DNA of 64,000 nt from an uncultured Pelagibacteraceae bacterium (GTDB lineage Bacteria; Pseudomonadota; Alphaproteobacteria; Pelagibacterales; Pelagibacteraceae): NCBI GenBank assembly GCA_902616645.1, contig CACMTO010000005.1, forward strand, positions 1 through 64,000, read 5' to 3'. Positions within the stretch are counted from its first letter, which is position 1; the number at the start of each line of letters is the position of its first letter. The notes under the pieces are model-generated. The model made no database searches. It saw only the letters and a list, made by a program, of their open reading frames with translations, and had not been told where the DNA came from. The translations under genes and the position numbers were made by a program. Shown in pieces: positions 1,347-53,255 of this stretch.

Positions 1347-2474
1347 TTAAGCAATTGCTTGTTGGTTGTGCACTTTTGCACTCATTACGACTCCAAAACC
1401 AAACATGGTTGCTAACATTGAAGAACCTCCATAAGACATGATTGGTAAAGGAGAGCCTACAATTGGGAGAAGCCCTAAAACCATGCTCATATTAATTGTT
1501 ATATAAAAAAAAATTGAAACACCAAAACTGTAACAAAATATTTTTGCAAAGTAGCTTCTAGATGATGCACCAATTGCTATAATTCGATAGATAATAAGTG
1601 CATAAATTATCAAAAGAAAAGCAGATCCCACAAAACCAAATTCCTCTGAAAAAAGTGTAAAAATAAAATCAGTATGTTTTTCAGGCAAAAATTCTAAATA
1701 ACTTTGAGTCCCTTTTAAAAAACCTTTACCAAAAATTCCACCTGAGCCCACAGCAATTTTAGATTGAATAATTTGATAACCAGCACCCAACGGGTCTCTG
1801 TCTGGATTCAAAAATGTTAAGACCCTAAGTTTTTGATAAGGTTTTAAAAAAGAGATTATAAAAGGCAAAGAAATCAAAAATCCCAAGAGGGTATAAATAA
1901 AATACTTATGATTAATTCCAGCAAACCATAATACTGCAAGACCAGTAATTGCAATTAATAGTGATGTTCCTAAATCTGGTTGAACAATTACTAGTCCCAT
2001 TGGTAAAAGAATAATGATTAATGATGTAAAAATTGTGTAAATTGAATTTACATTTTCTAATTTCATTCTATGAAAATATTTTGCAAGACATAAAATAATA
2101 CAAATCTTCATAAGTTCAGAGGGTTGTAAATTTAAAAAGTATAGATTTATCCATCTTTGAGATCCCGAGGACTCTATACCAAATAAATATGTTCCAACTA
2201 AAAGGATTACCGTAATCAAATAAAAAAGATAACCTATTAAAAACCAAAATTTTATATTTATAAAAGAAATTATCAACATCATTAGAGTGAATACAATTAA
2301 TTTTGTAAAATGACTTTTTGTATGAAATAAAATTTTTCCACCATCTGTAGAGTACATTGTTCCTAAGCTAATAAATCCCAATAAAAGGATACATGCTAAT
2401 AAAACATAATCAAAATTTTTAAATTTTTGAAAAAAATTAAAATTGTTATTTGAGAGTCTTGAGTGTTGATACAT
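1347..2474 (-). CDS. rodA: Rod shape-determining protein RodA, SEDS peptidoglycan glycosyltransferase
   Basis: RodA polymerises lipid II into glycan strands in the elongation complex, paired with PBP2. The 375-residue protein is an integral membrane protein with about ten hydrophobic segments and the SEDS hallmarks: the GSQRWINL loop, LQPSELMKI, VIVQPDLGTSL, the large loop LPEKHTDFIFTLFSEEFGF, and a C-terminal PIVGSPLPIMSYGGSSML. Length fits the family. It starts one base after the mrdA stop, so it is translated with its transpeptidase partner as the last gene of the leuA-mreBCD-mrdA-rodA run. It is told apart from FtsW at 37172 by this neighbourhood. Confidence 0.96.
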   Translation of the reverse strand: MYQHSRLSNNNFNFFQKFKNFDYVLLACILLLGFISLGTMYSTDGGKILFHTKSHFTKLIVFTLMMLIISFINIKFWFLIGYLFYLITVILLVGTYLFGIESSGSQRWINLYFLNLQPSELMKICIILCLAKYFHRMKLENVNSIYTIFTSLIIILLPMGLVIVQPDLGTSLLIAITGLAVLWFAGINHKYFIYTLLGFLISLPFIISFLKPYQKLRVLTFLNPDRDPLGAGYQIIQSKIAVGSGGIFGKGFLKGTQSYLEFLPEKHTDFIFTLFSEEFGFVGSAFLLIIYALIIYRIIAIGASSRSYFAKIFCYSFGVSIFFYITINMSMVLGLLPIVGSPLPIMSYGGSSMLATMFGFGVVMSAKVHNQQAIA

Positions 2475-18483: not shown

Positions 18484-18491
18484 GATTTTTA

Positions 18492-18519
18492 TTGAATCTC
18501 TTAAAATTGGTTTTATATT
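18492..18519 (+). promoter_or_regulatory. Putative ssrA promoter
   Basis: TTGAAT and TATATT are 16 bases apart, close to sigma-70 consensus. The predicted start, about base 18526, is exactly where the first hairpin of the tmRNA acceptor piece begins. It lies between the divergent thyX start and ssrA. AT-rich DNA gives many chance -10 boxes, so the call leans on position. Confidence 0.45.
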
Positions 18520-18525
18520 AATAGT

Positions 18526-18790
18526 GTTGGCTTGCCAACTACGACGATAAACGAATTTCGTAATAACCATTGCGGACGTGGGGGCAGTACCCACCACCTC
18601 CACCATTTACAACTTAGGGGGGTGAACTAGATTCGACGGGTGACTAAAAGTTATTCTTTCGTTCGGAATTGTTCCTCCGTAAAGGGCTAATTTATAATTG
18701 CTAACGAAAGTTACGCACTTGCTGCTTAATTAACTTGTTAATTAAGTAAACGGGGTCTGGAGGCACCTGGCAACAGAACGCCTCCCTATT
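18526..18790 (+). ncRNA. ssrA: Transfer-messenger RNA, circularly permuted two-piece form
   Basis: The acceptor piece comes first, about 18526-18605. It has a 5-bp T stem (GTGGG/CCCAC) with loop GGCAGTA, the acceptor strand CACCTCC and an encoded ACCA. After an 11-12 base spacer the coding piece starts near 18618 with GGGGGTG, which pairs over 7 bp with that acceptor strand, and continues with the conserved tmRNA 5' sequence AACTAGATTCGACGGG. GTTATT (18650-18655) pairs with AATAAC (18562-18567) across the pieces. The tag frame at 18700-18729 reads ANESYALAA then TAA, inside a 10-bp hairpin (18725-18746). A further GGAGGC/GCCTCC stem at 18759-18785 is part of a pseudoknot domain. Permuted ssrA is a hallmark of alphaproteobacteria. 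The exact ends are estimates. Confidence 0.93.
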
Positions 18791-18838
18791 AAATATTTTT
18801 AGATTTAACTTTTTCAAACTATATGATAGTTGTTTTTT

Positions 18839-51220: not shown

Positions 51221-51297
51221 TGGTGGGCCCGCCAGGACTCGAACCTGGGACCAATACATTATGAGTGTACTGCTCTAACCAACTGAGCTACAGGCCC
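51221..51297 (-). tRNA. tRNA with CAT anticodon (Ile2 or elongator Met)
   Basis: On the minus strand the RNA reads GGGCCTG...CGGGCCC with a full 7-bp acceptor stem, A73 and an encoded CCA (51223-51221). The T loop is canonical (GGTTCGAGTCC). The anticodon loop is CTCATAA, anticodon CAT. An Ile-like GGGCC acceptor stem suggests tRNA-Ile2 (lysidine), but an elongator tRNA-Met cannot be excluded. It is not the initiator: it lacks the C1-A72 mismatch and GGG/CCC anticodon stem. Confidence 0.95.
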
Positions 51298-51349: not shown

Positions 51350-51424
51350 TGGTGGGCCGTGTTGGTTACGCTCCAACTACCCCTGCAATGTCAATGCAGT
51401 ACTCTACTATTGAGCTAACGGCCC
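51350..51424 (-). tRNA. tRNA-Val (GAC), with non-canonical D and T loops
   Basis: On the minus strand the acceptor stem GGGCCGT/ACGGCCC pairs perfectly, with A73 and an encoded CCA. The anticodon stem CTGCA/TGCAG and loop TTGACAT give anticodon GAC. The T stem GTTGG/CCAAC is perfect, but its loop is AGCGTAA rather than TTCRANN. The D loop, AATAGTA, has no GG pair. Stems are all intact, so this looks functional rather than decayed. It lies 4 bases after the rpoD stop and is probably transcribed with it. Confidence 0.85.
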
Positions 51425-51428
51425 TAAT

Positions 51429-53255
51429 TTAACTTTCAAGGAAACTTTTTAACTGTTTTGACCTACTTGGATGTTTTAACTTTCTTAATGCTTTAGCTTC
51501 AATCTGTCTAATTCTTTCCCTTGTAACTGAAAATTGAAGTCCAACCTCTTCTAAAGTATGATCAGTGTTCATACCCACTCCAAATCTCATTCTTAAAACT
51601 CTTTCCTCTCTTGGAGTCAACGTTGATAGAATTTTTGTTGTAGCCTCTCCTAAATTTGATTTAATAGCTTGTTCTAAAGGTGCTAAAGCTTTTGTATCCT
51701 CAATAAAATCTCCTAAACTACTATCTTCTTCATCACCAACGGGTTTTTCAAGTGAGACGGGTTCTTTAGAAATTTTCAATACCTTTCGAACTTTGTCTAA
51801 TGGCATTCTAAGTTTTTTAGCTAATTCTTCTGGGGTAGCCTCTCTACCAAATTCACTCAATATCAATCTTTGAGTTCTGACTATTTTGTTAATCGTTTCT
51901 ATCATGTGTACTGGTATTCTAATTGTTCTTGCTTGGTCGGCAATTGATCTAGTTATAGCTTGTCTTATCCACCATGTAGCATAAGTCGAAAATTTATAAC
52001 CTCTACGATATTCAAATTTATCAACGGCCTTCATCAAACCAATATTACCTTCTTGAATTAAATCTAAAAATTGAAGACCTCTATTTGTATATTTTTTGGC
52101 AATAGATATTACTAATCTTAGATTAGCCTCAACCATTTCCTTTTTCGCAATTCTGGACTCTTTTTCTCCTTTTTGGATTCTACTTACTAATTTTTTAAAA
52201 TCAGTCACAGAAATTCCAAGTGTATTACTTATTTCGATTAGTCTCTCCCTGATATTTCTAAATTGTTCCTTATTTTTTGAGAAAAACTGCCTCCAAACTG
52301 TATTAGTATCTAGAAACTTTTTCAAATTCGGATTAATTTCGTTACCGATATAGAATTTTATAAATTCTGTTCTTGGAATTTTTTGATCCATTGCTAACCT
52401 TAAAAGATTTCCCTCTAAGGAAATTATCTTTTTATTTTCTATATAATGTTTTTGAACTAGATCCTCTAAAACTGAGGGAGATAATTGTAAAGACTTTATA
52501 TTCTCTAAAATATCTTTTACAGTCTTGTCATAACTTTTTTCTTTAGCTGTAGAAAAGGACTCAGATTTTAAAATACAATTTAATTTTTCTTTTTGGTATT
52601 TAATAAGCTTATTGTATTCTTTTGTTAAATGGGTAACTGTTTTTAGAACTTTCGGTTTAATTTCAGTTTCCATTGCAGCAAGCGTGGGATTAAATTCTTC
52701 ATCCTCATCATTAGCTCCATCTTCAGTTTTTTCAGTTTCGCCTGCATTTTTTTGTTTTGCACTAGGTCCTGTGGATTCATCTTCCATGTAATTTGTATCT
52801 ATATCGATAATTTCTCTAACTAAGATTTCATCTTTTTGTAGTTTTTGATTCCAGTCAAAAAATTGTTGAGCAGTGATCGGGCTTTGAGACAAAGCTATCA
52901 ACATTACATCTTTTCCTGCTTCTATTCTTTTTGCAATCGCAATTTCACCTTCTCTAGATAAAAGTTCTACTCCACCCATTTCTCTTAGATACATTCTTAT
53001 TGGATCATCACTTTTTTCAATTGTTTTACCTTCCTCCTTTGAGGAACTTTCTTTTTTTCTTAAAACTTTAAAATCAGATTTTTTTTCAACTAAAGTTATT
53101 TTTTCATCAAGTATGTGAATAAAAGCTTGAGCTAAGTTTTCGTCTGAGAGATTTCTCTTTCCAAGTGATTTGCTTAATTCTTCGTAAGTTATAAATCCTC
53201 TGTGGGTTCCTCGACCCATTAATCTTGCGAATGATTTAGTAATTATTCTTTCCAC
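51429..53255 (-). CDS. rpoD: RNA polymerase primary sigma factor RpoD
   Basis: The housekeeping sigma-70. A shortened N-terminal region 1.1 (about 1-60) is followed by region 1.2 ([22 protein letters not shown]), a non-conserved region of about 200 residues, then regions 2 to 4: [53 protein letters not shown] for -10 recognition, and [23 protein letters not shown] for -35 recognition. Length 608 is usual. It ends the yqeY-dnaG-rpoD operon; tRNA-Val starts 4 bases on. Confidence 0.98.

Follow-up and report, generated by a model that had tools for sequence, protein, structure and literature searches.

Two of the tertiary contacts that build the tRNA elbow, G18-Psi55 and T54-A58, are regarded as nearly universal, and both software and biochemists use them to recognise real tRNAs; the flat outer face of the elbow is made by a further pair, G19-C56 (PMC4810234). 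Several natural departures from this arrangement have been described. In eukaryotic tRNA-Ala(AGC) and initiator tRNA, R15/A48 occurs together with A54-A58, a combination said to be unobserved in bacterial or archaeal tRNAs (PMC7566577). The full GG and T-Psi-C motifs are absent from tRNA-Pyl, in which G19-C56 is also missing and the D loop has five bases, and from mammalian mitochondrial type II tRNAs, in which the contact between the D and T loops is lost (PMC7609411). Elbow bases of the D and T loops are likewise changed in the non-proteinogenic tRNA-Gly of staphylococci, which serves cell-wall synthesis, and the odd T loops of alphaproteobacterial tmRNA are already known. Here we describe a tRNA-Val(GAC) from the SAR11 lineage that is very likely a functional elongator tRNA whose elbow is held by alternative tertiary contacts, representing one case of a recurrent variant with A18 and G55. 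This reading is inferred from sequence alone, without structure, expression or charging data.

The gene lies within the 64,000-nt stretch of DNA that was analysed (hereafter the window), where the following features were assigned:

51350..51424, minus strand: tRNA-Val(GAC), 75 nt with CCA encoded, supported by ARAGORN, Rfam RF00005, folding and conservation
51405..51411, minus strand: D loop AAUAGUA, read as A14 A15 U16 A18 G19 U20 A21 by alignment to the tRNA model
51378..51382, minus strand: variable region GGGUA, the last base of which is A48 and faces A15, from the tRNA-model alignment and constant in homologues
51366..51372, minus strand: T loop AGCGUAA, read as A54 G55 C56 G57 U58 A59 A60 from the tRNA-model alignment, homologues and covariation
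51429..53255, minus strand: rpoD (sigma-70), an open reading frame with its stop codon 4 nt upstream of tRNA-Val

Written by structural segment, the RNA reads GGGCCGU UA GCUC AAUAGUA GAGU A CUGCA UUGACAU UGCAG GGGUA GUUGG AGCGUAA CCAAC ACGGCCC ACCA. Its score against RF00005 is 53.6 bits, compared with a cut-off of 29, and ARAGORN agrees on the location; the RF00005 elongator criterion (stems of 7, 4, 5 and 5 pairs, a CCA end and a score above the cut-off) is thereby satisfied. All 21 stem pairs are standard, leaving the four stems perfect, and the minimum-energy fold is the cloverleaf (-28.6 kcal/mol, z -3.3). The statement of the initial annotation that all stems pair well, that CCA is encoded and that the loops are as written therefore held under ARAGORN, RF00005 and folding. 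With the canonical class I bacterial elongator tRNA (RF00005), the molecule shares the cloverleaf, the stem lengths, U8, A14, G19, C56, R57, U33, the A73 discriminator and the encoded CCA. The canonical tRNA, however, has G18, U54, U55, A58 and a pyrimidine at 48, in place of which tRNA-Val(GAC) has A18, A54, G55, U58 and A48. Consequently, 18-55 is A/G rather than the standard G/U and 54-58 is A/U rather than U/A, such that neither the G18/U55 nor the U54/A58 criterion is met, and 15-48 is A/A where R/Y is standard. Both members of the outer elbow pair, G19 and C56, are retained. The earlier remark that the D loop lacks GG thus holds only in part, as only G18 is lost while G19 is kept with its partner C56; similarly, the claim that both partners of the elbow contact had changed together holds for 18-55, but G19-C56 is unaltered, and the elbow persists in modified form.

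The nearest described relative of this elbow is the eukaryotic class with R15/A48 and A54-A58 (PMC7566577). The two have A48 and A54 together, along with a purine at 60, and tRNA-Val(GAC) meets the R15/A48 criterion through A15 and A48. The eukaryotic class nevertheless retains G18-Psi55 and A58, whereas tRNA-Val(GAC) has U58, failing the A54/A58 criterion, and A/G at 18-55. Like tRNA-Pyl and the mitochondrial type II tRNAs, it is a natural tRNA without the full GG and T-Psi-C motifs, yet it differs from both in keeping G19-C56 and normal arm lengths. No description of an A18/G55 elbow was found in the open-access literature that we searched; the subscription literature lay mostly outside that search, and an earlier report is possible.

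Among 61 related genomes searched, the 75-nt sequence is found without any change in 20 further species of the genus, and other relatives carry homologues at 84-99% identity. In the diverged homologues the acceptor, anticodon and T stems differ, with both members of 10 of the 21 pairs replaced and every pair in every homologue still formed; when the pairing register was slid as a control, pairing fell from 100% to 32-52%. The D, variable and T loops of these same homologues are constant except for one change at U20. Given loops that hold constant as compensated changes accumulate in the stems, tRNA-Val(GAC) is being maintained under constraint on its loops and is not a product of decay. The original suggestion of an altered tertiary contact rather than decay is accordingly strongly supported by loop constancy, by stem compensation and by the covariation of 18-55 and 54-58 described below. 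The same loops were found repeatedly in other SAR11 genomes, and their recurrence across many genomes, single-contig ones included, excludes a sequencing error. A second, normal tRNA-Val(GAC) was not found either in the genome of origin (88.8% complete), where a single Val(GAC) is accompanied by one normal tRNA-Val(UAC), or in the complete genome of a relative (G012), where the single Val(GAC) has the same sequence as that in the window. The commonest valine codon by codon counts is GUU, which is decoded by the GAC anticodon.

The odd loops had been treated as peculiar to one tRNA. This view has to be corrected, for they extend to SAR11 tRNA-Phe, tRNA-Thr and tRNA-His, to other bacteria, to viral tRNAs and to the tmRNA of the same window. 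In the genome of origin and in G012, the only tRNAs departing from GG and UUC are Val(GAC), Phe and Thr(GGU), plus His in the former genome, and A18, G55, G19 and C56 are all present in each of Val(GAC), Phe(GAA), Thr(GGU) and this His. The Phe(GAA) species has the D loop AGGAGUA and the T loop UGCGAAU; Thr(GGU) has the D loop AGGUAGUA or AGGGAGUA and the T loop UGCAAGU; and His(GUG) of the genome of origin has AAUAGUA and AGCGUAA, the loops of Val(GAC) itself. This tRNA-His(GUG) (L024, positions 1498-1571, minus strand, contig C2) is found by Rfam and missed by ARAGORN, which also misses the tRNA-Thr(GGU) in L021. The Thr(GGU) gene of G012 (L085) ends in ACCG, and CCA is not fully encoded there.

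The His locus of the genome of origin is colinear over 3 kb with a normal-looking His locus of G012, and therefore a switch of elbow type has taken place at one orthologous position within the genus. Since the two His tRNAs also differ in their stems, the switch may have occurred by replacement of the whole gene. Elsewhere in the lineage the elbow is carried by other tRNAs: in genus g5, the elbows of Val(GAC), Phe and Thr(GGU) are normal whereas His combines A18/G55 with U54-A58, and in family f2 the AAUAGUA/AGCGUAA elbow is carried by Thr(GGU). The g5 Val(GAC) (G061), although its elbow is normal, has U15/A48, a reversal of the 15-48 pair.

To survey 40 genomes of the order, we used a pattern in which G55, C56 and a GCUN-A D arm were fixed, with any base allowed at 18 and G19 left free. 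All 40 of the true G55 tRNAs recovered, which were picked by reading the listed matches, the rest being chance, have A18 and G19 (16 Val, 15 Phe, 7 Thr and 2 His). Conversely, no tRNA combining A18 with U55 was detected in these 40 genomes, the only two matches both being non-tRNA. Our patterns admit a single D-stem type and require CCA to be encoded, shared ancestry is not accounted for in the counts, and several scans were incomplete. Across the class, a search of 337 genomes recovered the arrangement in the genus of origin alone, besides two chance matches. In a scan of GTDB genomes, cloverleaf tRNAs with A18/G55 were nonetheless encountered outside SAR11, namely in Chloroflexi (Phe), CPR (His), Verrucomicrobia, Gammaproteobacteria and a Bathyarchaeota bin, and those that were re-tested were accepted by the Rfam tRNA model. 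Two of the CPR His tRNAs, with AAAAGUA, AAGUA and AGCGUUA as D loop, variable region and T loop and with A48, form a close parallel to SAR11 Val. Some of the non-SAR11 examples sit in tRNA arrays, and a mobile origin is possible for them.

Viral tRNAs served as a further control, for which unique, cloverleaf-passing tRNAs from IMG/VR were read in one fixed frame; here too several scans were incomplete and shared ancestry was ignored. Under these conditions A18 accompanies G55 in 94 of 99 tRNAs, and G18 accompanies C55 in 87 of 89, with a Fisher test of G55 against C55 by A18 against G18 giving 6e-47, kinship again ignored. A55 was seen once. Among the viral U55 tRNAs, G18 was read in 272 of 355, many of the exceptions having a longer D loop, with a G placed at least one base ahead of what the frame reads as 18. 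The G18/C55 tRNAs amount to a second variant class, common in viral tRNAs (loci L607-L685), with a UCCGANN T loop and U54-A58 retained. Viral Val(GAC) tRNAs carry U15/G48 or C15/A48.

When 124 unique A18/G55 tRNAs from cells and viruses were pooled, 54-58 was found to be U-A in 58, A-U in 29, G-G in 28, A-A in 6 and some other combination in 3. The mutual information between the two positions is 1.27 bits, compared with 0.05 after shuffling, and is the highest among the features compared. A purine at 54 accompanies a purine at 60, as in the eukaryotic A54-A58 tRNAs (PMC7566577). The 15-48 pair is looser, with G-C, A-C, A-U and A-A all represented. As a whole, the class is represented by many different anticodons, D loops of several lengths and four combinations at 54-58.

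The same coupled change is present in a different RNA of the window:

about 18488..18820: permuted tmRNA
18583..18589, plus strand: tmRNA T loop GGCAGUA, read as G54 G55 C56 A57 G58
18625..18639, plus strand: part of the tmRNA D loop, AACUAGAUUCGACGG, with A18 at 18629 and G19 at 18630

Here A18 and G19 occur with G54, G55 and G58, in agreement with the Rfam alpha_tmRNA consensus (RF01849), in which UAGG and GGCgGUA likewise place A18 with G55; the consensus of Rfam tmRNA_permuted, by contrast, has UGG with UUCGAUU. Alphaproteobacterial permuted tmRNA and tRNA-Val(GAC) thus meet the criterion for a shared A18/G55 contact class, which does not imply membership of one family: the tmRNA has no D stem and uses G54/G58, whereas Val(GAC) uses A54/U58.

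These patterns can be accommodated by a model, still hypothetical, in which A18 would take the place of G18, stacked between residues 57 and 58, with its amino group bonding O6 of G55 in a donor-acceptor pattern that parallels those of G18-U55 and G18-C55. The A54-U58 pair would close the T loop of Val(GAC) as U54-A58 does, and A54-U58, G54-G58 and A54-A58 are each predicted to be capable of forming a trans pair that closes the loop. With the G19-C56 outer face unchanged, contacts with RNase P, the ribosome and some synthetases would remain, and the tRNA would need neither the T54 nor the Psi55 modification. No obvious compensation is apparent for A48 opposite A15. That the altered contact forms in three dimensions is inferred from sequence alone, as no structural data are available. 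A kissing helix of U16-A59, A18-U58 and G19-C56 was also considered; it could explain the A54/U58 type, but the U54-A58, G-G and A-A members do not fit it, and it is not favoured.

Indirect evidence bears on the expression and use of these tRNAs. At roughly 52 of 71 loci (42 by motif and about ten by eye), the tRNA gene either follows rpoD at a distance of 0-32 nt or shares one base with its stop codon. From this position directly behind rpoD we infer that tRNA-Val(GAC) is likely cut from the rpoD message. In around ten related loci, the tRNA begins within the rpoD stop codon, its first base being common to both. In the complete G012 genome the sole tRNA-Phe carries A18/G55, and the long open reading frames in 85% of that genome contain 17,689 Phe codons; because no other tRNA-Phe is present, ribosomes and factors must accept the A18/G55 elbow. 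Usability on the ribosome is supported in this indirect way only, charging and ribosomal use being inferred. The argument from a sole tRNA rests on a complete genome for the U54-A58 form (Phe), and for the A54-U58 form on the sole His seen in the 88.8%-complete genome of origin.

One profile search did not detect TruB, the Psi55 synthase, in three genomes of the genus, two of them single-contig and 99-100% complete, or in g8 and g9, but did detect it in the g5, g6, g7 and f2 genomes; control genomes were positive in 14 of 14 cases. The absence depends on that single search, and the region of G012 expected to hold rbfA-truB-rpsO-pnp was not covered by a second check. Observed cases of tRNA-Phe with A18/G55 were confined to g1, g8 and g9, and Phe is normal in g5.

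Four other explanations can be weighed against a maintained, functional elbow variant. Drift of the loops in a dead or decaying tRNA copy might account for a model score below that of the neighbouring tRNA (53.6 versus 72.7 bits), but this is all but excluded by the identity across 20 other species, the compensated stems, the constant loops and the standing of this gene as the only Val(GAC) of the complete relative. It is also conceivable that the molecule is specialised for a role outside ribosomal translation, like the staphylococcal cell-wall tRNA-Gly, with another tRNA-Val doing the decoding, and the normal tRNA-Val(UAC) could indeed read valine codons. We consider this very improbable: GUU, read by GAC, tops the valine codon counts, and the SAR11 elbow class, unlike that of the staphylococcal tRNA, is shared with the sole tRNA-Phe of G012, which is bound to serve translation.

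Exchange of whole tRNA genes or segments, for example by phages, could instead have spread the paired loops, in which case the coupling would reflect common descent more than compensation. The loop combinations do recur in viral tRNAs, one of which (L329) is a Val(UAC) with AAUAGUA, GGGUA and AGCGUAA, the SAR11 Val and His loops are identical, and some non-SAR11 cases sit, as noted, in tRNA arrays. Even so, this explanation seems unlikely given the breadth of the class across anticodons, D-loop lengths and 54-58 combinations, the existence of C55 tRNAs as a separate class that keeps G18, and the near-absence of mismatched combinations, which descent alone leaves unexplained. As for a phage origin of the Val(GAC) gene in particular, the phage records searched gave no match to the tRNA itself, although viral tRNAs share its loop class. 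The remaining proposal, that the loops answer the loss of TruB, in that G18-U55 would be weak without Psi55 and A18-G55 favoured, cannot be dismissed. It draws support from the failure to find TruB in the genus itself, g8 and g9 set against its presence in g5, g6, g7 and f2, a split that the A18/G55 Phe distribution follows. Against it, the A18/G55 elbow is also carried by tRNAs of genomes or genera that have TruB (His in g5, Val in g7 and Thr in f2), and TruB-less genomes keep G18 and U55 in most of their tRNAs. Loss of TruB might therefore favour the elbow switch without being required for it.

Beyond our preferred reading of tRNA-Val(GAC) as a functional elongator with an alternative elbow, a bolder one may be entertained, for and against which we find the case evenly balanced. 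The elbow would exist in discrete versions, with 18-55 as G-U, G-C or A-G, the last of which lets 54-58 be U-A, A-U, G-G or A-A; lineages would switch single tRNAs between versions, and SAR11, apparently without the Psi55 synthase, would rely on the A18/G55 version, which needs no modification, even in its sole tRNA-Phe. The recurrent coupled replacement suggests that the fixed part of the elbow is G19-C56 and that the remainder can be rebuilt. From the variant one would expect natural tRNAs that do without TruB and T54 methylation, and it lends itself to simple double-mutant tests. Gene finders under-score or miss such tRNAs. SAR11 bacteria belong to the most abundant kinds of cell in the ocean, and for this reason the A18/G55 elbow is no rare curiosity.

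The tRNA neighbouring tRNA-Val(GAC), at 51221-51297 on the minus strand, has normal loops, as the initial annotation had stated. Although called tRNA-Met(CAT), it is probably tRNA-Ile(CAU), because three CAT tRNAs are present in each of G012 and G061, and two of the three resemble initiator and elongator tRNA-Met.
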